Below the pieces are notes generated by a model, which worked only from the letters and a program-made list of their open reading frames with translations, was not told the origin of the DNA and searched no databases. Source: Planctomicrobium sp. (lineage in GTDB: Bacteria; Planctomycetota; Planctomycetia; Planctomycetales; Planctomycetaceae). Taken from it: DNA of 13,318 bases. This document shows, in pieces, positions 2,284 to 12,525 of the stretch; position 1 is the stretch's first letter, and the number at the start of each line of letters is the position of its first letter. A program made the position numbers and the translations under genes. The stretch lies in assembly GCA_029259835.1 (NCBI GenBank), contig JAJDEL010000460.1, positions 1-13,318 on the forward strand. The letters are read 5' to 3'.

Positions 2284-3189
2284 ATGAAAATCGTCATCCT
2301 GTCGCGAAATGCGGCTTTGTATTCGACCGCCAAACTTCAACAGGCTGCGGAAAAACGCGGTCACGAAGTGGTGATCATTGATTATCTGCGTTGCTTTATG
2401 AATATCGCCTCGCGTCGTCCCAGGATCATGTTTGCCGGGGAGGAAATCAAAGATGTCGACGCCGTGATCCCTCGCATCGGAGCCTCGCAAACATTCTACG
2501 GAACTGCCGTTGTCCGTCAGTTTGAAATAATGGGTGTTTTTTGCGCGAATGAATCGCAGGCGATTACGCGATCCAGAGACAAGCTTCACTGCCTGCAAAT
2601 CCTCTCTCGTGATGGGATTGGTCTTCCGGTCTCCGGCATCGCACATTCTACGAAAGATATCGACGGCCTGATCGACAGTGTCGGCGGCGCTCCGCTCGTC
2701 GTGAAACTTGTTGAAGGAGCACAAGGCAAGGGAGTTATTCTTGCAGAGACAAGGAAAGCTGCCGAAGCGGTGATTGAAGCGTTTCGCGGACTGGATGCGA
2801 ACATTCTCGTTCAGGAATTCATCAAAGAAGCCGAAGGCAGCGACGTTCGCTGTGTTGTTGTCGATGGAGAAGTCGTCGCATCAATGATCCGCACCTCTCC
2901 CGAAGGTGATTTTCGTTCAAACGTTCACCGTGGTGGCATCGCAAAGAAGGTTGAAATCACATCCGACGAACGTGAGACCGCGATTCAGGCTGCTGAGTCA
3001 ATGGGACTGAAAATTGCCGGTATTGATATCCTGCGGTCCGCCCACGGTCCAGCCGTTATGGAGGTCAACTCTTCCCCCGGTCTGGAAGGAATCGAAATGT
3101 CCACCGGCATTGATGTCAGTGAGAAGATCATCAAATACCTCGAACTGCGAGCAGGTTCTCATCAGAATCAGGATACGATCAAAGGGTGA
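2284..3189 (+). CDS. rimK: Ribosomal protein S6--L-glutamate ligase RimK
   Basis: This 301-residue ATP-grasp enzyme closely follows the E. coli RimK sequence as I remember it. The N-terminus is [14 protein letters not shown], then [21 protein letters not shown] (61-81), RDKL (98-101) and [18 protein letters not shown] (134-151). K141 and the glycine-rich loop bind ATP, D248 (GIDIL) and E260/N262 ([11 protein letters not shown]) bind metal, and the RSNVHRGG segment (211-218) follows GDF. RimK adds glutamates to the C-terminus of ribosomal protein S6. Its length is normal for the family and no key residue is missing. The ATG at 2284 is the family start; the ribosome site upstream is poor (AAGTAACA). 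An upstream RimB-like gene on the same strand is the expected partner. Whether transcription crosses the hairpin array between them cannot be seen. Confidence 0.95.
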
Positions 3190-3285: not shown

Positions 3286-3315
3286 TTGAAGTATTGAACC
3301 CCCGTTCGTTACAAT
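3286..3315 (+). promoter_or_regulatory. Candidate sigma-70-type promoter of the FHA gene
   Basis: TTGAAG (3286-3291) and TACAAT (3310-3315) are separated by 18 bases, a good match to a -35/-10 pair. The -10 overlaps an in-frame ATG at 3314. If the promoter is real, that ATG cannot be on the transcript and translation must begin at 3392. Consensus matching only. Confidence 0.45.
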
Positions 3316-3391
3316 GAATTGTGTTCGCATCTCGGCACAGGGCACGATTGCCAATTCAATCCTAATTTCAGACATTGGACGGAACAATCAA

Positions 3392-3817
3392 ATGAACGAA
3401 CCACCTGAGTTTCCAGAACTACCTTTGATTGTGCTCTCAATACACAGCCCCAAAACTGGTGAGCAGAAAATCGAAATCGCAGCAGGCAAGAGTGTTGTCT
3501 TCGGTCGCGACGCATCATCTGACCATGCTGTCAATGATCTCCAAATGTCGCGCAGTCATTTCCGCATTGTCAGCACGGACCGTTCTTGGATGTTGCATGA
3601 TCTAGCCAGCAGTAACGGAACACAGCTTAACGGCAAAAATGTGACGGAAAGCGAGATTAGCGATGGCAACATCATTCTAGCTGGCGAGACACAATTTCAT
3701 GTCAGTTTTTCGAAATCGTCTCCCGACGACTCAAGCGATGGCAATTCTGAAGGTTGGCAATTCGGTGAAACGCTCGACAATCTCACAGTCCCCGATGACG
3801 AAGATCATAAACTTTGA
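3392..3817 (+). CDS. FHA-domain protein
   Basis: This 141-residue protein consists almost entirely of one forkhead-associated domain, a phosphothreonine-binding module. The signature is complete: GRD (38-40), SRSH (53-56, with the conserved Ser and His) and SSNGTQLNGK (73-82), flanked by beta-rich sequence. The last 30 residues are acidic and probably disordered. There is no membrane segment or second domain, so it likely acts as an adaptor for a Ser/Thr-kinase pathway; planctomycetes have many such kinases, but none is in the window. The start at 3392 is preferred over the in-frame ATG at 3314. GGACGGA precedes 3392, the upstream residues do not look like FHA sequence, and a candidate -10 box covers 3314. 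It converges on the DUF1559 array with 150 bases between, in which I see no clear terminator. Confidence 0.85.
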   Translation: MNEPPEFPELPLIVLSIHSPKTGEQKIEIAAGKSVVFGRDASSDHAVNDLQMSRSHFRIVSTDRSWMLHDLASSNGTQLNGKNVTESEISDGNIILAGETQFHVSFSKSSPDDSSDGNSEGWQFGETLDNLTVPDDEDHKL

Positions 3818-3967: not shown

Positions 3968-4711
3968 TCAGTAATCACTGCCCGAGACCGTCTCTCCGCC
4001 AGTTGCCGTGCAGAGTTTCTTGAGGACTTCTGGATCGATTGATTCGGGAAGGTATCGTGCGCTGCCGTCGCCGAACACTACGTTGGCTCCTCCTTCATGA
4101 TACGAAGAGAGCAACCCACCTGATTGTCCTTTCGCTTTTTCCGGTAAGTTGATTCCGATTTGCATCGAGTCCAGGTCCACATCGCGAGGCTCACTCCACG
4201 CAATATTCTGCCCGCAGGCTTCGACGATCATCAGCGTTTGTGAAAGGCCATCTCCGCCGGAAATCACGCTGAGATTCAATGACTTCTTTTTTCCCCACAT
4301 CGCGTTGGCGCCGGTGATTGCTGCGTAGCCGGTTAACCCAAAGCCTTCGGAGGTGGTAGAAGATGGGGCTGATAGACATTCATAGACCTCGATCAGAGTC
4401 TCGGCGATCTCGTGATTGGGTCCTTCATTCCAGGGCTGGTCAAATTGATATCCGTCATGTAAAGATTGCTGTTCGAGATACGGCAGAAGTTTCACACGCC
4501 AACTATGTGGCGGCTCACCCGTTTCGGTCGCAGGGATATCTCCTTCATGTTCTGTTGTGTAAAAATGAATTGCCATGCCAACATTCCGCATGTTGTTCAG
4601 GCACTGCATTTGACGTGTGTTGCGTCCTCCTATCCGAGGTCGTGATAACAGGGAAAACATCACGAGTAACGACAGGGAAACCAATGGAAACAATATCCAG
4701 AACTTTTTCAT
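3968..4711 (-). CDS. DUF1559 / H-X9-DG domain protein, short form (paralogue 1)
   Basis: This 247-residue protein has one N-terminal hydrophobic helix (about residues 4-22, starting MKKFWILFPLV) and an extracytoplasmic DUF1559 domain. Family landmarks are QCLNNMRNVGMAIHFY, PPHSWRVKLLPYLEQ, the family core IVEACGQNIAWSEPRDVDLD, and the H-X9-DG motif with H205 and D215-G216, followed by SARYLPESIDPEVL. Most family members carry a type IV prepilin leader (GFTLxE); none is visible here. The usual CPSD after the middle strand is degraded to CLSAP. The start at 4711 was chosen by alignment with paralogue 2, whose corresponding upstream frame is blocked by TAA. An alternative ATG at 4765 would add 18 residues and overlap the stop of paralogue 2 as TGATG, a possible translational coupling. 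The specific function is unknown. Confidence 0.85.
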   Translation of the reverse strand: MKKFWILFPLVSLSLLVMFSLLSRPRIGGRNTRQMQCLNNMRNVGMAIHFYTTEHEGDIPATETGEPPHSWRVKLLPYLEQQSLHDGYQFDQPWNEGPNHEIAETLIEVYECLSAPSSTTSEGFGLTGYAAITGANAMWGKKKSLNLSVISGGDGLSQTLMIVEACGQNIAWSEPRDVDLDSMQIGINLPEKAKGQSGGLLSSYHEGGANVVFGDGSARYLPESIDPEVLKKLCTATGGETVSGSDY

Positions 4712-4722
4712 TGATCTACCAT
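4708..4722 (-). other. Conserved four-codon leader ORF overlapping the start of paralogue 1
   Basis: ATG GTA GAT CAA TGA (M-V-D-Q-stop) ends in an ATGA overlap with the ATG at 4711. The same arrangement precedes paralogue 2 (M-A-D-Q-stop). No ribosome site is visible ahead of it, so translation is doubtful. The pair could simply be conserved because the duplicated segment includes the upstream bases. Confidence 0.2.
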
Positions 4723-4764
4723 TGGAAAGTGAACATGCAATCGAAAGTGAATCGCGTTTAATCA

Positions 4765-5505
4765 TCAGTAATCTGAACCGGTTAACATTTCTCCACCGGT
4801 TGCTGTGCAGAGTTTTTTGAGAATTTCTGGATCGATTGATTCGGGAAGGTATCGTGCGCTGCCGTCGCCGAAGACGACGTTCGCTCCGCTTTGATGATAC
4901 GAGGAGAGCAAACTATTGGGCTGCCCGGATTTCTGATTTGGCAGGTTAATCCCCACTCGCATGGAGTCCAGATCCACATCGCGCGGCTCACTCCACGCAA
5001 TATTCTGCCCGCAGGCTTCGACGATCATCAGCGTTTGTGAAAGGCCATCTCCACCCGAAATCACGCTGAGTTGCTGAGAGTTCTTCTTCCTCCACATTGC
5101 GTTGGTACCGGTAATTGTAGCGTACGCTGTCAATGCGTAGCCTTCTGATGTCGTAGAAACTGGAGCATCTGGGCATTGATAGACTTGGAGCTGAGACTTG
5201 GTGATCTCGCGATTTTCCCCAACGTTCCAAAATTCAGTATCGTCGTATCTTTGGCGGAGCGCTGATTGTTCAAGGTAGGGAAGAAGATCCACACGCCAAC
5301 TATGTGGTGGATGACCTCCTTCGGTCGCAGGAATGTCTCCCCGGTGATCTGTAGCGTAAATTTGAATCGCCACTCCGGCATTCCGCATGTTGTTTAGGCA
5401 TTTTGGCCTGCTTCCAATTCTTGCTTGTTGTGTGCCTGGCATGAAAAGCCATACCAGTAGCAAAAGGGCAACAACGAATTGAACGAAGAACCAAATTTTT
5501 TTCAT
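4765..5505 (-). CDS. DUF1559 / H-X9-DG domain protein, short form (paralogue 2)
   Basis: This 246-residue protein is nearly the same length as paralogue 1, with which it shares most residues. Its single N-terminal helix is at about 4-22 (MKKIWFFVQFVVALLLLVWLF). The domain follows: [59 protein letters not shown], and H-X9-DG with H204 and D214-G215. It has no prepilin leader. Its stop lies 53 bases before the start of paralogue 1, so the two are probably one transcript. At DNA level the pair shares an exact 68-base match (4985-5052 against 4188-4255) and a similar block just before the start codon, which indicates recent duplication or gene conversion. A palindromic element (5541-5743) lies 35 bases upstream and separates the gene from the transposase. 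Confidence 0.87.
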   Translation of the reverse strand: MKKIWFFVQFVVALLLLVWLFMPGTQQARIGSRPKCLNNMRNAGVAIQIYATDHRGDIPATEGGHPPHSWRVDLLPYLEQSALRQRYDDTEFWNVGENREITKSQLQVYQCPDAPVSTTSEGYALTAYATITGTNAMWRKKNSQQLSVISGGDGLSQTLMIVEACGQNIAWSEPRDVDLDSMRVGINLPNQKSGQPNSLLSSYHQSGANVVFGDGSARYLPESIDPEILKKLCTATGGEMLTGSDY

Positions 5506-5540: not shown

Positions 5541-5743
5541 GGGTGGCTGGGGCGCTCTTGAGACTGTGCTGTAAGTGATACGTTTTCTTGTGTGAACGAG
5601 TGGGGATGATATTGATTCGTTGCAGCCCCAGACGTAGGTGGTGACTGCAACTTCTGGGGCTAAGACTGTCACTTTTGACTTGACTCTGAGACTGCGTCGG
5701 GTGTTCAATTTTCATACACGATTTCACTCGGCCCCAGCCACCC
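5541..5743. repeat. Composite palindromic element, copy A (REP/BIME-like)
   Basis: A 203-bp element is bounded by the perfect 13-bp inverted repeat GGGTGGCTGGGGC (5541-5553) and GCCCCAGCCACCC (5731-5743). Inside, AGCCCCAGA (5624-5632) and TCTGGGGCT (5653-5661) form a second 9-bp inverted repeat around a 20-base loop. All four boxes share the GGGGC/GCCCC core in alternating orientation. The sequence between boxes is also shared with copies B and C, including a GTTTTCT word after box 1 and a CTCTG...CTGCGT stretch between boxes 3 and 4. It lies between the starts-side of DUF1559 paralogue 2 and the transposase. Confidence 0.85.
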
Positions 5744-5769
5744 AGTATGTAGAAGTCACCATGTTCAAT

Positions 5770-5825
5770 GGGTGGCTGGGGCGCTATGACGCTGTCCTCT
5801 TGAAGTCGAAGTTCATAGCCCCAGA
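5770..5825. repeat. Half copy D of the palindromic element, overlapping the transposase 3' end
   Basis: GGGTGGCTGGGGCGCT (5770-5785) is identical to the first 16 bases of copies A and B. It is followed 31 bases later by AGCCCCAGA (5817-5825), the box-2 sequence; boxes 3 and 4 are missing. Here the two boxes form a tighter imperfect hairpin: TGGGG-CG-CTATGA pairs with TCATAGCCCCA, leaving a two-base bulge, the shape typical of REP sequences. The stop codon and last codons of the transposase gene (GLGL-stop) are inside this hairpin. Confidence 0.75.
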
Positions 5826-6406
5826 CCAGTATCGACAAGCCATTCAGGTGGAATCGAATCAGGCATGAGAGGCACAATGCTTTGATCAACGTACCAGGCT
5901 GCGCTCGACCACTTCCACTCGCTCGCCCTTGTCACCAATTGTGGACGACATGGGTTCTCGTGAACGTAATCAATCATCTTCAATAGTGTTGATCCTTCCG
6001 TGATGTTCCGGTCATATCCACCACCTGATTGCCAGAACAGATATTCCTTCCTCGTTCCTCGTTGACGCTCGATTCGAGGAAGCCATTCGGGAGCATTCTC
6101 TTTGAGCCAGGCGATTGCTTTTCTGGCCACTGGTTCCTTGATCAAACGACGGACGGCTGAAATGTCATAGTGAGACTGACGAGGATGTATGATTAAATGG
6201 ACATGGTCAGGCATGAACACCCATGCCCAAAGATCAAATTCCAGTTTGATTCGCGCATTCTCAATTGACGCCACCAACCATTGGCAAGTTCGTTCGCGTT
6301 CCAAAAATGGAAAACGATGGTAGCACGAAAATGTCAACTCGTGCGCATGTCCTGGATCATTGATGTTCTTGCGATGAGGTTTGTTCGGGCGTCGTGCTGG
6401 GGCCAT
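5813..6406 (-). CDS. REP-associated tyrosine transposase (RAYT, Y1/HUH family)
   Basis: This 197-residue protein is a single-domain HUH enzyme related to IS200/IS605 TnpA. The metal-binding HUH motif is H68-V-H70 in MPDHVHLII. The catalytic tyrosine is Y147 in KMIDYVHENP, and the C-terminal WKWSSAAWY (164-172) is typical of REP-associated transposases. All key residues are intact and the length is normal. RAYTs are usually single-copy genes that bind and cut short palindromic REP sequences around them; consistent with this, related palindromes occur on both sides (copies A, D, B) and further off (C). The ORF ends within half copy D. Near its start, the MAPAR codons contain another GCCCCAGC word. 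The ribosome site is weak (GAAGAAA). Both flanking genes are DUF1559 paralogues, so it appears to have been inserted into the array. Confidence 0.9.
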   Translation of the reverse strand: MAPARRPNKPHRKNINDPGHAHELTFSCYHRFPFLERERTCQWLVASIENARIKLEFDLWAWVFMPDHVHLIIHPRQSHYDISAVRRLIKEPVARKAIAWLKENAPEWLPRIERQRGTRKEYLFWQSGGGYDRNITEGSTLLKMIDYVHENPCRPQLVTRASEWKWSSAAWYVDQSIVPLMPDSIPPEWLVDTGLGL

Positions 6407-6435
6407 CGCGTTTTCTTCTATCTTGGCTTTGTGAC

Positions 6436-6637
6436 GGGTGGCTGGGGCGCTCTTGAGACTGTGTCGTAAATGTTACGTTTTCTTGAATGAACCAGTTGTA
6501 GGAAACTGAATCGTCACAGCCCCAGACATGGTGGTGGTGACAATTTCTGGGGCAGTGTCGGTCACTTTTGACTTGGCTCTGTGGCTGCGTAGGGTGTTCA
6601 AACTTTCATTCAAAATCTCATCAAGCCCCAGCCACCC
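6436..6637. repeat. Composite palindromic element, copy B (REP/BIME-like)
   Basis: A 202-bp copy lies between the transposase start and the stop of DUF1559 paralogue 3. Boxes are GGGTGGCTGGGGC (6436-6448), AGCCCCAGA (6518-6526), TCTGGGGC (6546-6553) and GCCCCAGCCACCC (6625-6637). Order, orientation and spacing match copy A, and the inter-box sequences are clearly related, for example GTTTTCTTG after box 1 and GGGTGTTCAA before box 4. It starts 29 bases from the transposase start codon. Confidence 0.85.
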
Positions 6638-6669
6638 ATATTTAGGATTTATATAGATTGTTTTACTTC

Positions 6670-7725
6670 TCAAAAATCTCCAACCACATCACCACCGCTG
6701 GCAGTGCTGAGGGCCTTTAATACGTCCTTGTCCATGTTTTCACTCACATAGTGAACGCTGCCGTCTCCCATGAGTGCTTGAATTCCTCCGGTGTGAAATG
6801 ACGACAATGCACCTTCTGATCGTCCGAGTTCCTTGCCAGGCGCGTTCATGATCAATTCAGATACTGAGAGCTGCACATCCTTCGGCTCTGCCCAGGCAAT
6901 ACGCTGCCCGCAGGCTTCGACGACGAGCAACGTGTTACTGGTGCCATCGGTGATGTCTCTGATTCTCAATGATTCCTTTGGTTGCCAAATCGTTTCCGTC
7001 CCAACCAAAGCGGCGTACGCCGTGAATGGAAATCCGTCCACACCTGTCATAAACGGATCACTGGGACATTGATAAACACGCAATTTCGTTTTTGCAATTT
7101 TTTCGTTACTGCCAGTGTTCCATTTCTCTGCGAAGTCATATGTGCCGTGTAATGTTTTGAGTGGCGGCTCGTCTCGATATCCTTGACCAAGAAAAGGCAG
7201 CAAATCGACCCGCCAGCTATGCGGCGGTTGATCTGACTGGTGAGACGGAAACCGTTCATAGGTGTCGTGGTAGTTGTGAAGTGCCAGTCCAATTTGCTTG
7301 AGATTGTTTTTGCACTGCGTGCGACGACCTGCTTCGGGTGCCCCAAGGACAACTGGAAGAATGCACGCAAAGTAAAGCAGGAAGAACATTGTCGCGTAGA
7401 TACTGAAATGGCCCCAACGCGATTTATCCCTCAAAGTAAGACGTACCCATTGCAGGAGTATTGCCATCACGACGATGAACCAAGCCGAGAGAAGGATTTC
7501 TTTAAAAGCAATTGGTTGGCCTGGAAAAAAGTTCATCCGTCGAGTGAAAATTATAGAAAGAACAATTCCAATAAGAATGAACACTACTACGTCATAGTAT
7601 CTCGGTGTTCGCTTCCTCCGTACCATCAACAAAATGATGCTGAACCCGGTAAGCAACCACAGCATATGAATGCCCATCGACCCCCACGTGTTCGTTGACC
7701 AAGGCTCCGGTGGAAACTCATACAT
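6670..7725 (-). CDS. DUF1559 / H-X9-DG protein with four-helix N-terminus (paralogue 3)
   Basis: This 351-residue protein begins MYEFPP and has four hydrophobic segments at about 15-34, 43-60, 76-94 and 107-129, with RRKR after the first. The DUF1559 domain follows: [75 protein letters not shown], and H-X9-DG with H311 and D321-G322. By the positive-inside rule the domain lies outside the cytoplasmic membrane. The prepilin cleavage motif that usually precedes [10 protein letters not shown] is absent and a plain transmembrane helix takes its place. It follows paralogue 4 after only 17 bases, with AGAGAA before its ATG, so the two form an operon. The last domain residues are more divergent than in paralogues 4 and 5. 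Function unknown. Confidence 0.88.
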
Positions 7726-7742
7726 GATTGGTTCTCTTTAAA

Positions 7743-8789
7743 TTAAAAGTCGACATAGTCTTCGCCACCGTTGCGAGTGATCAGGCTGTGGATGACTTCG
7801 GGGGATGTCGATTCCGACAGGAAGCGAACGCTGCCGTCTCCGAGTAGTACTCTTGCCCCACCGAGGTGATAGGATGAAGCAATGCCGTCAGAATGATTCG
7901 GTTTGCTGCCGGAAAGGTTGACGCCGGTCGGTGTGTCCTCGAAGGAGACATCTCTCGGCTCAGCCCAGGGAATGCGTTGCCCACAGGCTTCGACGACCAT
8001 AATGGTGTTGCTGGTCCCGTCCGTGATCTCTCGAATCTTTCCACCTTCGTCATCTGGCCAGATTGTGTTCAGACCTGTCACAGCAACATAGGCAGTCGTT
8101 GGGTATCCGTCCGGCCCCGGTTCGTATCGGTCACTGGGACACTTAAAAATTTTCATTTTAGTTTTGGCGATGGATTCGTTGCCTTCTTTATTCCAGCGGA
8201 GATCGTAGTTGTATTCTTTTTGCATCGGGGCATGATCAATGTAAGGCAAGAGATCAATGCGCCAACTATGGGGAAGCTCACCAGAAGCTGCCGCTGGGAA
8301 CTGCGAGTAAGTGTGATGGAAGTTGTGAAGGCCGATTCCGATATGTTTGAGGTTGTTTTTGCATAAATTTCGACGTCGTGGGCTAGTGGGCTGCTGAATT
8401 GCAGGCATCAACATCGCATAAAGAAGTCCTCCGCTGATCGTCATTGCAATTACACTCAGAATGGCGCCTTCGCTGTCCCCTTGTTCTATAAGCCGATTCA
8501 AAACGCGAACTATCGTGCTGACTGCGGAAATCCACACGACAAAAATGAAAATGCCAATATATTCTGGTAGGGGAGCAACCGAGCGATCCACGGACAGCAA
8601 GATCACCGTCACTAAAGTTGCGGCACCGAAGGTGAGCATCGAATCATAGAAATGCGGCTGTCGTTTTCGGCGAATCAAACAACACATAAAGCCGAGACCA
8701 GCGATCATGACAAACGAATGCCAACCGAACAGCCACCAGCTTGTGACTGTGAAAAATGGTTGATAGTGATTCGGTGGGAAGTCGTACAT
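7743..8789 (-). CDS. DUF1559 / H-X9-DG protein with four-helix N-terminus (paralogue 4)
   Basis: This 348-residue protein begins MYDFPP and has hydrophobic segments at about 18-39, 47-66, 75-95 and 108-129, with RRKR after the first. The fourth segment runs into YAMLMPAIQQPTSPRRRNLCKNNLKHIG, which resembles the pseudopilin helix end (LLPAVQQAREAARR) of ordinary DUF1559 proteins, but there is no GFTLxE leader. Then come [47 protein letters not shown], and H-X9-DG with H308 and D318-G319. The end LITRNGGED is shared with paralogue 5. The start is supported by GAGG five bases upstream. It is the first gene of a pair with paralogue 3. Palindromic copy C lies 53 bases upstream. Function unknown. 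Confidence 0.88.
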   Translation of the reverse strand: MYDFPPNHYQPFFTVTSWWLFGWHSFVMIAGLGFMCCLIRRKRQPHFYDSMLTFGAATLVTVILLSVDRSVAPLPEYIGIFIFVVWISAVSTIVRVLNRLIEQGDSEGAILSVIAMTISGGLLYAMLMPAIQQPTSPRRRNLCKNNLKHIGIGLHNFHHTYSQFPAAASGELPHSWRIDLLPYIDHAPMQKEYNYDLRWNKEGNESIAKTKMKIFKCPSDRYEPGPDGYPTTAYVAVTGLNTIWPDDEGGKIREITDGTSNTIMVVEACGQRIPWAEPRDVSFEDTPTGVNLSGSKPNHSDGIASSYHLGGARVLLGDGSVRFLSESTSPEVIHSLITRNGGEDYVDF

Positions 8790-8842
8790 GATGCCTCACA
8801 TTGTAGATGAAAAGTTACTCGGGATCCGTTCATCGTTGCGAT

Positions 8843-9043
8843 GGGTGGCTGGGGTGCTCTTACGCTTGTGTAGTAAGTTTTGCGTTTTCTATACGTGGGA
8901 CATGTGGATAAAAAATTGAATCATCACAGCCCCAGACGCGGTGGATGCAACTCCTGGGGCGATCGCGATTTCTATTCATGTCACTCTGTGGCTGCGTAGT
9001 TCATTCTCTCTTTCTCGACGATCTGATTCAGCCCCAGCTACCC
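8843..9043. repeat. Composite palindromic element, copy C (REP/BIME-like)
   Basis: A 201-bp copy lies between paralogues 5 and 4. Boxes are GGGTGGCTGGGGT (8843-8855), AGCCCCAGA (8928-8936), CCTGGGGC (8953-8960) and GCCCCAGCTACCC (9031-9043). It is more diverged than A and B, with one change in each outer box and a shorter central loop, but the order and spacing are kept. The outer pairing retains most of its pairs. A reading frame that spans A and B on the minus strand is closed here by a stop, which argues against coding. Confidence 0.8.
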
Positions 9044-9070: not shown

Positions 9071-10105
9071 TCAAAAATCGCCGACATCTTCCCCACCGTT
9101 GCGAGTGATCAGGCTACTGATGACTTCGGGATCGATATTTTCGGATAGAAAGTGAACGCTGCCGTCCGCCAGCAAAACTTGCACGCCGCCGGTGTGGTAG
9201 GACGACATGAGGCCATCGGAATGATGACGTTCGCGGCCCGGGAGATTCATGCCAAATGTGGTCTCGCTCAGTTTGACATCTCTCGGCTCTGCCCACGGAA
9301 TGCGTTGCCCACAGGCTTCGACGGCTAGCAGAGTATTGCTGCTGCCATCTGGCACCTTGCTCATGTGAATCGCCTCTTCTCCTGGCCATATTGAGTTTGA
9401 ATCGATGATGGCTGCGTATGCCGTAAACGGGTACCTCGCTTCTTTTGGGTGATACGGATCTGACGGGCACTGATATGCTGCTAGCTCGAGCTGCGAGAGT
9501 TCGACGTTAGCCCCTTCGTTCCACTTCGAATTGAAGTCGTATTCGTTGTAGAGCGGGGCCTGATCAATGAATGGCAAAATGTTCACTCGCCAACTCTGCC
9601 TTGGCTTTCCAGCAAATGCTGCCGGGAATGTCTCGTAGGTGTCGTGGTAATTGTGAAGAGCAAGGCCGATTTGCTTGAGGTTGTTTTTGCATTGAGTGCG
9701 TCTACCTGCGGTACGCCCTCCAACAACCGGTTTCAACGTGAAAATTAAAGCCAAAATAACCAGACAACCGAGCCACCAACCGGAACTAATTGCCGCACCG
9801 CTCCCATATGGTCGATCTTGATTTTCAAGTCGGACCCAATTTGCAATCGTTGCAACGATCATTCCAGTCCAGGCGATGACCAGAAAGCTGAAATGCGGAT
9901 ACATCATCCTGTACGGCGTTCCGTAGTCCTGTATCAAGCAATAGGTCTGCCCGATCGCGATGCCCAGAAAGATACTGGCATCAAAGACTCGAAGTTCGCA
10001 CTTCCGCCTGAGCATCCAGAACATTATCCCTGTCCCAACCCAGACAACGATTGCACCGATCACATTCGCCCAGAGCGTCGAAGGGTGTGGTGGGAAGTCG
10101 TACAT
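9071..10105 (-). CDS. DUF1559 / H-X9-DG protein with four-helix N-terminus (paralogue 5)
   Basis: This 344-residue protein begins MYDFPP and has hydrophobic segments at about 12-32, 40-58, 70-92 and 107-126. RRK after the first predicts that the C-terminal domain is outside the cytoplasmic membrane. The domain reads [75 protein letters not shown], and H-X9-DG with H304 and D314-G315, then SVHFLSENIDPEVI. It is the most upstream of the five genes and is probably transcribed from its own promoter; element C separates it from paralogue 4. The N-terminal word MYDFPP and the helices are shared with paralogues 3 and 4 but not with 1 and 2. The ribosome site is not obvious. Function unknown. Confidence 0.88.
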   Translation of the reverse strand: MYDFPPHPSTLWANVIGAIVVWVGTGIMFWMLRRKCELRVFDASIFLGIAIGQTYCLIQDYGTPYRMMYPHFSFLVIAWTGMIVATIANWVRLENQDRPYGSGAAISSGWWLGCLVILALIFTLKPVVGGRTAGRRTQCKNNLKQIGLALHNYHDTYETFPAAFAGKPRQSWRVNILPFIDQAPLYNEYDFNSKWNEGANVELSQLELAAYQCPSDPYHPKEARYPFTAYAAIIDSNSIWPGEEAIHMSKVPDGSSNTLLAVEACGQRIPWAEPRDVKLSETTFGMNLPGRERHHSDGLMSSYHTGGVQVLLADGSVHFLSENIDPEVISSLITRNGGEDVGDF

Positions 10106-10290: not shown

Positions 10291-11238
10291 ATGCAGACCG
10301 CACTTTATGGATCGATTGGCTGGAAACATCCATTTGGAATTTTTCAGGTTCTGGAATGGGCGAAGGAGTTTGGTTGGGACAGTGTTGACGCACGCGGGAT
10401 GACGCTTGACATTCCTGGCGGTCCGAAGAAGCAGTTGACGGCGTTTGGGTACGACATGCTTGGTCCTCGGCAGATTCGCCCGACAGCTCGGCAGCAGATT
10501 CGTGCTCGCTGCGAAGAGGTCGGCGTGCCGATTATTTGTCTCTACGTGGCAAGTCCAGTCAATCTGGAAGGACAACTCGGCGACGACAATCGAGCGTTGT
10601 TCAAAGAGTTCGTGCAACTGGCAGCGGACATGGGGATTGAATGGGTCCGGGCAATCAACAACACAACAGAAAGCTACAGCGACGAACCGTTCACAGAAGA
10701 AGAAGCGTTTGCGCGGACGGTCGCTGGTCTCAGAGAGGTCGGTCAGTTTGCTGCCGATTTGGACGTGGGCATTCTCATTGAGAACAACGAAAATACGACG
10801 ACCTCGTGCGCGGATGAACTTCTGGCGATGCAGAACGAAGTCCGCGGCAGTTGCCGAATCGGGATCGCCTACGACGGCACGAACGCCTACTTCCAAGGAC
10901 TCAACGAACTCGACGAGCTTCAGGAACTCGCCGGTTCGGTCGATTTCCTGCATCTCAAAAATGTGAAGCGGCATCACGACCCGACGTTTTCTTATCTCCC
11001 ACGCGGAGACTTCAGTTACGAATGGACATCCTTGCAGCATGGCGATGTCGACTGGCAAGCGTTTCTGGAATTGGCTGTCGAGGGAGGTTTCGACGGTCCG
11101 CTCACATTTGAGTACGTCAATCCGTTCAAAGGGATGCCTGCCGACTATTGGAATATCTTACGAGAACCAGAAGCCGCAGCGGCAGAAGAGATTGCGTTTA
11201 TCAAGAAAGTTTTGAAAGAGTTGAATCCCCCAGAGTAG
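10291..11238 (+). CDS. Sugar phosphate isomerase/epimerase family TIM-barrel protein
   Basis: This 315-residue protein belongs to the xylose-isomerase-like / AP-endonuclease-2 TIM-barrel superfamily. Likely metal ligands appear in the usual order: E164 (ILIENNEN), D195 (GIAYDGTN), H221 (FLHLKNV) and E274 (LTFEYV). The segment HGDVDWQAFLELAVEGGFDGPLTFEY is the typical end of the barrel in this family. There is no signal peptide, so the enzyme is cytoplasmic. The substrate cannot be read from the sequence; relatives act on sugars, inositols or hydroxypyruvate. The start is well supported by GAGGAAAG five bases before the ATG. It is divergent from the DUF1559 array and followed by prfB after 173 bases, in which I find no gene. 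It is probably a single-gene unit. Confidence 0.88.
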   Translation: MQTALYGSIGWKHPFGIFQVLEWAKEFGWDSVDARGMTLDIPGGPKKQLTAFGYDMLGPRQIRPTARQQIRARCEEVGVPIICLYVASPVNLEGQLGDDNRALFKEFVQLAADMGIEWVRAINNTTESYSDEPFTEEEAFARTVAGLREVGQFAADLDVGILIENNENTTTSCADELLAMQNEVRGSCRIGIAYDGTNAYFQGLNELDELQELAGSVDFLHLKNVKRHHDPTFSYLPRGDFSYEWTSLQHGDVDWQAFLELAVEGGFDGPLTFEYVNPFKGMPADYWNILREPEAAAAEEIAFIKKVLKELNPPE

Positions 11239-11411: not shown

Positions 11412-12525
11412 ATGGAAAGTGACTTTCGGGACAATGCAAATGTGTTGATGGAGCGCATCGTTCAGCTTAAGGACTCTCTTTGACTACGATGTGAAAATTC
11501 AGCGCGTCGCAGAGATTGACGAACTCATGGCGGCGCCAAATTTCTGGGACAACCAGGAGAAGGCACAGGAACTCATCGGCGAACTGCAGCGGGTGAACGC
11601 TGTGATTAAGCCTGTCGGGGAACTTGTCTCTGGGGCTGGAGATGTTGAGGTGCTCTTTGAATTTGCAGAGATGGAAGAAGAGGGAGGAGCGTCCGAACAG
11701 GAACTTGTCACAACTGTCGAGGATTTGCAAAAGAAGCTGGAAGCGGTTGAACTTCAATCAAGTATGAAGAACCCTGAAGACGCAGGGAACGCCTACGTGA
11801 CGATTCAGGCGGGCGAAGGTGGCACGGACTCTGCGGATTTCTGTGAGATGTTGATGCGGATGTACCTCCGCTGGTTCGAACGCACCTCTGGTTACAAAGC
11901 GGACGTTGTTGATATCTCCGAAGGTGAAGAAGCCGGCCTGCGAAACGTGACTCTGCACGTCAAAGGAGACTACGCATTCGGATACCTGAAAGGTGAAACA
12001 GGGAACCATCGACTCGTCCGGATTAGCCCGTTTGATTCAGCAGGTCGGCGACATACATCGTTTGCCGCAGTTGATGTGATCCCCGATTTCGGTGAGATGG
12101 AAGTGATCGACATTGACTGGGATAAAGATGTTCGTGAAGACACCTATCGCGCAGGGGGGGCTGGTGGACAGCATGTCAACAAGACAGATTCAGCGGTCCG
12201 TTTGACGTACCTCCCGACGAACGTCGTTTCACAATGTCAAAGCGAGCGGAGCCAACACAAGAATCGTGCATCCGCCAGGAAAATGTTGCAAGCGAAACTG
12301 TTCCAAATCGAACAGGAAAAGAAGAGCGCCGCTGCCGCTGCACGCCGTGGAGAAAAATCCAAGATCGGTTTCGGTGGTCAAACAATTCGGCACTATGTTT
12401 TGCAACCGCAGCAATACGTTAAAGACGACCGCACCGAACTCAAACTCAATAACCCCTTCGAAATCCTTGATGGTGATATCGATGAATTGATCGAAGCGTA
12501 TTTAAGATGGAGTATTGCGAAGTAA
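11412..12525 (+). CDS. prfB: Peptide chain release factor 2, with programmed +1 frameshift
   Basis: The first 23 codons (MESDFRDNANVLMERIVQLKDSL) end at an in-frame TGA. A +1 shift joins them to DYDVKIQRV and onward, giving 370 residues, close to the 365 of E. coli RF2. The protein recognises UGA/UAA and releases the finished chain. SPF at 205-207 (stop-codon reading) and GGQ at 251-253 (peptidyl-tRNA hydrolysis) lie where they do in E. coli. RF2 controls its own level through the shift. Read without the shift, the gene would appear as a 344-residue ORF from a GTG at 11491, which is too short and lacks the N-terminal helix. The ribosome site is modest (GAGTGA). It converges on the putative lipoprotein gene with 27 bases between. 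Confidence 0.95.
11469..11484 (+). promoter_or_regulatory. prfB programmed +1 frameshift site
   Basis: The slippery codon CTT (11478-11480) is followed by TGA (11481-11483) and C, giving the canonical CTTTGAC. An internal Shine-Dalgarno-like AAGGA (11469-11473) lies just upstream, as in E. coli prfB. When RF2 is scarce, the ribosome pauses at UGA, slips one base and reads GAC. The residues on both sides align with RF2 only after the shift. Confidence 0.93.

Follow-up and report, generated by a model that had tools for sequence, protein, structure and literature searches.

The 13,318-bp contig JAJDEL010000460.1 of Planctomicrobium sp. (Planctomycetaceae; assembly GCA_029259835.1, 954 contigs, 82% complete), analysed over its whole length and termed the window hereafter, carries a gene for a REP-associated tyrosine transposase (RAYT, or TnpA-REP; REP, repetitive extragenic palindrome) and four repeat elements around it, three of which are inverted doublets of REPs (REPINs) and the fourth a single REP. 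The RAYT gene (5813..6406, minus strand, stop codon at 5813-5815) is an intact reading frame of 197 amino acids. REPIN A (5541..5743) is composed of a plus-strand REP at 5541-5631 with a loop of 71 nucleotides (nt) and a minus-strand REP at 5743-5654 with a loop of 70 nt, separated by a centre spacer of 22; REPIN B, upstream of the RAYT gene (6436..6637), of REPs at 6436-6525 (plus, loop 70) and 6637-6547 (minus, loop 71) with a spacer of 21; and REPIN C (8843..9043) of REPs at 8843-8935 (plus, loop 73) and 9043-8954 (minus, loop 70) with a spacer of 18. The single REP, a half copy on the plus strand at 5770..5824/5825, adjoins the RAYT 3′-end and contains the head GGGTGG, the stem arm CTGGGGC at 5776-5782, a 35-nt loop and the arm GCCCCAG at 5818-5824, with this 3′ arm falling inside the final 12 bases of the RAYT gene (codons CTG GGG CTA TGA). 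Likewise, the RAYTs of two relatives, G070 and G071, terminate at a stem arm (genomes are numbered by G, contigs by C and loci by L; the window genome is G000). An initial annotation, made from the letters alone, had placed all four copies correctly. Apart from the 12-base overlap with the RAYT frame, the copies are intergenic, as checked for those in the window.

The three full copies are 201-203 bp long and 70-79% alike. The outer and inner boxes that they had been said to share recur far beyond chance: with at most one mismatch, the window contains 7 matches to the 13-base outer box versus 0.01 expected and 13 matches to AGCCCCAGA versus 2.15 expected, with none of 200 shuffles reaching either count; two exact and one inexact of the 13 AGCCCCAGA matches fall outside the elements. 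The sharing is nevertheless imperfect, as copy C has one mismatch in each outer box and TCCTGGGGC as its third box. Each REP starts with the head GGGTGG at the hairpin foot, followed by the stem CTGGGGC/GCCCCAG, and so presents the GT[AG]G foot by which REPs are recognized, and each full copy forms the inverted doublet typical of REPINs. The REPs of the full copies measure 90-93 nt with loops of 70-73 nt, beyond the usual REP size (21-65 nt with a short loop), and the single REP measures 55 nt with its loop of 35 nt. The initial annotation took the units to be larger and more complex than proteobacterial REPs; the four boxes amount to the ordinary REPIN plan with expanded hairpin loops, and not to a new plan of four parts. 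Compared with shuffled sequences, single REPs folded only modestly better (z = −1.9 for the single REP, and −0.8, −2.0 and −0.2 for the left REPs of A, B and C, respectively).

Alignment and profile searches located an HVH motif (residues 68-70) and a predicted catalytic Tyr147 within MIDYVHENP in the RAYT, namely the HxH motif plus one catalytic tyrosine that characterize Y1 HUH transposases, and H68, H70, W125, Q126 and Y147 are invariant across all 17 aligned RAYTs. The protein scored 90 bits against the NCBIfam model of REP-associated tyrosine transposases (NF047646, cut-off 80) and 24.1 bits against PF01797 (cut-off 23), and missed the threshold of the IS200 model (17.3 bits, cut-off 55). 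Its one match in the genome at E ≤ 1e-10 is itself, unlike the multi-copy state expected of IS200/IS605 elements, and its top relative of solved structure by sequence, although weak (E = 0.012), is the E. coli TnpA-REP (4ER8). The proposed RAYT identity of the gene is thus confirmed.

The RAYT was then compared with those of its family, based on a sample of 120 genomes of which 72 had a RAYT match at E ≤ 1e-10. Nearest to it are the RAYTs of G070 (69% identity), G103 (66%) and G071 (65%), which bear the same box on their flanks, facing outward. Those at 54-63% identity mostly have the head GGGTGG with CTGGGG, CCGGGG or CGGGG stems and loops mostly of 14-19 nt (others 11, 45, 60 and 88); CACGCCC stems are found beside RAYTs at about 44-58% identity, and more distant RAYTs often have the head GGGTGC with stems such as CACTGCTGG. 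By RAYT lineage, the stems are CTGGGG, CCGGGGC, CGGGGCTG, CACGCCC, CACTGCTGG/CACTGGC and CCCAGACG, so that RAYTs are flanked by REPs of their own whose stem matches the RAYT lineage. The claim that the elements are the cognate REP/REPIN units of the RAYT was supported in this way, with the same box beside the closest RAYTs and other stems with the same or a similar head beside the distant ones. For 98 RAYT frames, taken from 98 of 101 loci, a stem of 6 bp or longer begins right behind the head in 114 of 195 outward GGGTG[GC] heads; the corresponding counts are 27 of 86 for inward heads and 71 of 3900 for shuffled tails. Because the outward heads carry stems far above these controls, the four boxes of the window copies are read as two inverted REPs, each a head plus a stem. 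A tree of 61 of the 98 RAYTs (score above 125 and at least 160 amino acids) placed the four RAYTs with long loops like those of A, B and C together or nearly so, with 2 changes for the long-loop state, a number this low arising in 2 of 500 label shuffles. Three or more long-loop REPs are present in each of the 4 genomes whose RAYT reaches 65% identity, versus 5 of the 116 others in the sample, an association with a chance of about 1.5e-5 assuming independent genomes and with the 65% line set after the data were seen.

Other stems and heads were also noted beside RAYTs. The window genome has a second, broken RAYT (G000:C364; L142, L148), on the flanks of which is a different REP with the same head (GGGTGGC followed by CCCGAAAG...CTTTCGGG), and in G078 a stretch of GACGCAAAGTCGCAGAGACGC precedes a RAYT on its upstream side (L065). 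Among the 23 loci viewed of 80 named ones, a few RAYTs with other stems gave matches with loops of 34-49 nt and one of 72 nt, which could represent additional long-loop REPs or, alternatively, matches that reach into a second REP; such flanking hairpins have loops of 47/49 nt at L269 (an Armatimonadetes metagenome-assembled genome), 72 nt at L242 and 34/41 nt at L251.

Copies outside the window, which the initial annotation had proposed to look for, were found both in the same genome and in box-rich relatives. The window genome has four further units with both outer boxes (C117:11930-12140, C265:6407-6609, C506 with one box decayed, and C944:2689-2911), the interiors of which are unlike those in the window save for a 32-base end of the C117 unit, so that the genome holds a multicopy set of 7 units with both outer boxes plus one single REP. 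Exact boxes number 255 in G019, 34 in G071, 33 in G070, 18 in G103, 16 in G059, 13 in G011, 12 in G016, 11 in G085, 8 in G000 and 6 in G015, versus 0-2 for a backwards control in box-rich genomes; at least one exact box is present in 67 of the 120 family genomes, 41 of which have one or two, near the control level. In the single-contig 7.7-Mb genome G059, 10 long-loop REPs are on the minus strand and 1 on the plus strand, spread over the whole chromosome, a skew in orientation not obviously expected from a simple leading/lagging pattern. On contig C73 of G103, a 196-bp REPIN lies inside a 239-base gap between two genes, which in the congener G078 are about 45 bases apart with no element there and in G008 are also close together with no element. 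Because two relatives have the empty site, a gain in G103 is favoured, with the exact insertion point unreadable since the spacers have diverged. Of three empty-site searches, that with L217 gave a clean answer, and those with L216 and L218 gave none, meeting many repeated segments. Among 132 distinct flanks, no conserved target site was visible beside the head (largest base share: 0.37).

Measured from the first to the second CTGGGGC arm, loops in the examined loci are mostly 12-18, 32-36 or 68-73 nt long (75-78 in G016), and the window holds both of the expanded classes, 35 nt in the single REP and 70-73 nt in the three REPINs. Searching 170 family genomes, with loci not preselected, for GTGGCTGGGGC-N(55-85)-GCCCCAG found the long-loop pattern in 23 of them. 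Among the 150 matches listed (G019, 23 of 219 places; G103, 23 of 39; G016, 23 of 39; G071, 23 of 34; G070, 20 of 20; G059, 11 of 11; G000, 5 of 7), 116 loops are at 69-73 nt, one of them from G016, and 22 more, all from G016, at 75-78 nt. With N(20-50) instead, matches were obtained in 9 of 14 chosen genomes, and 30 of the 32 loops are 32-36 nt long, 19 of them exactly 34. A class-wide search gave the long-loop pattern in 15 of 297 genomes, 5 of them outside the family; the latter were rejected as outer-box-to-outer-box spacings, 22 of 24 listed places (of 30) having the same interval on both strands, as were G014 and two G016 places in the family search. Among the genomes searched, and for CTGGGGC as the only stem searched, long loops were thus confined to this family; the box as such is found beyond it too, with short loops in G250 and G205. 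Double-headed single units with a loop of 76 or 55 nt were observed at G016:C177:3362-3459, G016:C235:1405-1502 and G014:C40:21826-21902; extra copies of a variant head plus arm, GGGTGCCTGGGGCAG, stand about 40 bases upstream of REPINs at L117 and L120 (G011, G079), and at L109 and L110 (G103) two single long-loop REPs precede a repeat that reads GACTCACGCAG...GCGCAG or has a similar sequence.

Which unit keeps its length can be read from composite elements. A single unit joins two loop classes in G070, G015 and G011 (34 nt with about 71, or 34 with 15-16), and the ~141-bp units of G019 have the box order + + − −, with two REPs overlapping by about 41 nt and loops still of 69-73 nt where both arms are readable, save one exception with a repeated inner segment. 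These mixed-class and overlapping units suggest that it is the REP, and not the REPIN, that maintains its length. The centre spacer between the two REPs ranges, by lengths derived by hand in 31 units, from an overlap of 42 nt to 116 nt (standard deviation: 36, or 31 without G019 and G016).

The loops themselves were compared by pairing 31 of them, all those of 68-73 nt from five genomes: in 382 of 465 pairs the similarity does not exceed that of shuffled sequences (95% level), although their lengths differ by a mean of 1.2 nt. An internal fold of the long loop was rejected, as 42 loops (the G019 overlapping units excluded and two other G019 loops included) fold no better than shuffles (mean z = −0.2). 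Within genomes, some loop positions are weakly conserved, most clearly near the loop 5′-end. As a hint from a word chosen post hoc, YGCAR recurs near the loop middle, with 36 of 68 occurrences in 90 loops at positions 30-44. Thus there is little constraint on the sequence or fold of the loop, and its length is nearly constant. That this constancy merely reflects common descent with rare indels, and no measuring, is a serious alternative that we nonetheless consider unlikely: the long-loop genomes found all belong to one family, the long-loop RAYTs cluster on the tree and 37 of 120 same-genome loop pairs are still above chance identity, yet most pairs are saturated in sequence while hardly differing in length, units of this kind differ widely in their centre spacer, and the overlapping units of G019 retain the loop spacing.

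Judging from this constancy of length, the loop may instead act as a functional spacer whose length is gauged by the RAYT complex or by a host single-strand-binding factor; if so measured, mainly units with the right loop length would be propagated. One specific form of this proposal, put forward as a hypothesis that we regard as rather improbable, is that a factor which wraps single-stranded DNA irrespective of sequence uses the loop as a ruler. Such a factor would explain both why the length is constant although no hairpin is detectable and why it is kept inside the REP. The ~34- and ~71-nt loops would then correspond to the 35- and 65-nt modes of a single-stranded DNA-binding protein (SSB) tetramer plus a few connecting bases, the E. 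coli tetramer binding 35 or 65 nt (PMC9917605), and SSB bound in the loop would bring both arms of the stem into contact for the RAYT, on the strand exposed at a replication fork. Two protein sites kept in helical phase on duplex DNA were rejected as an explanation by arithmetic, as centre distances of 41 and 78 bp make about 3.9 and 7.4 turns, out of phase. IHF and HU wrap ~35 bp per dimer, and wrapping of this size could also serve as the ruler, for which the loops would need to be duplex.

Taken together, the locus is probably a REPtron, i.e. a RAYT with its cognate REPs and REPINs, a reading that rests on sequence comparisons: the anatomy, the match between RAYT lineage and stem, the multicopy dispersal, the one presence/absence difference between congeners and the concentration of loop lengths at ~34 or ~71 nt. 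By analogy with E. coli TnpA-REP (PMC8266576), the RAYT would bind the GTGG head as a guide together with the stem hairpin on displaced single strands, and, from the known biochemistry of TnpA-REP, it could nick and rejoin or transfer strands, resulting in REPIN dissemination.

Several observations weigh against the REPtron reading or its loop classes. Inward heads with stems exceed the shuffled control; REPINs predict such an excess, yet it shows that the head is common. The tree does not support a single origin of the long-loop RAYTs (2 changes, with 1 change in 28% of bootstrap trees). Twelve of the 150 listed loops fall at 55, 55, 57, 57, 58, 74, 76, 76, 80, 82, 83 and 85 nt, further off-class loops are of 38 (G078), 58 and 83/85 (G019), 65 (G063) and 83 nt (G085, a box variant), and many boxes lack a second arm within 120 nt. 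The copy number in the window genome, 82% complete, is low for REPs, and A, B and C adjoin tandem DUF1559 genes, together with which they may have been copied. In addition, the expectation that the elements occur only where this RAYT type is present fits G000, G070, G071 and G103, but does not strictly fit the assemblies of G019 and G016, which have boxes without a flanked RAYT: no box lies beside any of their 12 and 7 RAYT-like places, respectively, with the sole exception of one box about 1.3 kb from a RAYT fragment in G016. Boxes without a close RAYT were also found in G085 (best RAYT 29%) and G015 (a 52% fragment), the RAYT flanks of which were partly viewed. In these four genomes the cognate RAYT has either been lost or fallen into an assembly gap, an event that flanking repeats make more likely; G019 and G016 are fragmented assemblies. 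In G078, a RAYT fragment adjoins a REP with a 34-nt loop about 430 bases from the contig end.

The same repeats could be viewed as the ends of an ordinary terminal-inverted-repeat (TIR) element or miniature inverted-repeat transposable element, a "TIRtron", in which everything depends on the 13-bp outer boxes and the inner ones are incidental. Two outer boxes do bracket the RAYT like transposon ends in G103 and others, and RAYTs with long TIRs on their flanks have been described (PMC3733652); in both cases a RAYT-like gene lies between inverted repeats that recur in the genome. Nevertheless, single REPs of box 1 plus box 2 exist without a partner, the spacing of boxes 1 and 2 is nearly fixed while that of boxes 2 and 3 varies, a compact head plus hairpin is found on each flank in other RAYT lineages, and the units of G070, G015 and G011 that mix two loop classes argue for the REP as the module, so that we give this view little credence. 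In the published account of TIRtrons, the TIRs are called unrelated to REPs, whereas the window repeats have the plan of a GTGG head plus hairpin (PMC3733652).

Spread mainly via duplication of the neighbouring DUF1559 genes, and not by the RAYT, appears equally improbable. Five tandem DUF1559 (SBP_bac_10) genes on the minus strand (3968-4765, 4765-5505, 6670-7725, 7743-8789 and 9071-10105; Pfam was run on three of the five, and the others were judged from repeated sequence) have the elements between them, with A, B and C at 27-35 bases from DUF1559 genes and B and C at 32 and 27 bases, respectively, downstream of DUF1559 stop codons. This array and the likeness of the three copies speak for duplication, and by their spacing it looks as if a DUF1559 gene and a REPIN were sometimes duplicated as one. 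In addition, segment 746-1003 of the G103 locus L216, presumed to be part of a DUF1559 gene, recurs dozens of times and adjoins several REPINs. Against this, the four other units of the window genome have other interiors, the gene end beside the C117 unit resembles by eye a thiolase and not DUF1559, and the C73 unit of G103 is bordered by two single genes, which adjoin each other in G078 and G008 too. Dissemination by the RAYT remains preferred over such co-duplication. Further out in the window, judged by eye, are what we take to be an NYN-domain protein (560-1492), a RimK-associated aspartyl-protease-like protein (1308-1856), a RimK-like ligase (2284-3189), an FHA protein (3314-3817), a sugar-phosphate isomerase (10291-11238) and release factor 2 (11491-12525). 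Lastly, a non-mobile RNA element of the DUF1559 array, such as a terminator or regulatory RNA, would suit the intergenic position and the perfect outer inverted repeats but is very improbable, as Rfam found no match in the window, no terminator-like site there overlaps an element (count 4 versus a shuffled level of 4.2), the loops have no fold beyond chance and units also lie beside other genes.

Known REP systems share much of this plan. Like the REPINs of Pseudomonas fluorescens SBW25, in which inter-REP distances peak at 71 bp (GI) and 110 bp (GII) (Bertels & Rainey 2011, PMC3116915), the units here contain two inverted REPs, are RAYT-associated and have a poorly conserved interior the length of which matters; in SBW25 (PMC3116915), however, what is fixed is how far apart the two REPs lie, and the interior can fold into a hairpin, whereas in the window class the fixed distance is inside each REP, without a fold beyond chance, and the inter-REP distance is free. 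With the GT[AG]G REPs and REPtrons they have in common the GTGG head at the hairpin foot (also in Pseudomonas), the flanked RAYT and the co-evolving stem, and "double-foot" REPs are both published and found here on G016 contigs C177 and C235 (PMC6006769, PMC3686654). Published REPs are about 21-65 nt long with loops of 2-5 nt in the search rule, which 4 of 66 break (PMC6006769, PMC3686654); those of the window measure 55 nt (loop 35) or 90-93 nt (loops 70-73). GTGG heads are reported from O. terrae and GTAG REPs from R. baltica, a planctomycete; loops are of 9-15 nt in GTAG-15, and inner loop regions reach 27 bp in GTAG-14, the largest loops of the GTAG families being self-complementary or at most 15, unlike the long loops of the window with no detectable fold (PMC3733652). 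The y, z1 and z2 REPs in the bacterial interspersed mosaic elements of E. coli likewise form dimers with differing upper stems and loops, and the upper stem-loop is assigned a non-specific structural role; they differ in being 29-37 nt long, with a required stem bulge and the head GTAG (PMC8266576). No description of REPs with 34- or 71-nt loops was found in the open-access RAYT, REPIN, REP and planctomycete literature consulted, most subscription journals and all supplements lying outside that scope.

These repeats would show that REP detection rules restricted to short loops can miss entire REP populations. A loop class that keeps mainly its length bears on how RAYTs spread REPINs and on what beyond the REP is selected, and the two discrete loop sizes, which separate length from sequence and fold, make this question testable with synthetic oligonucleotides.

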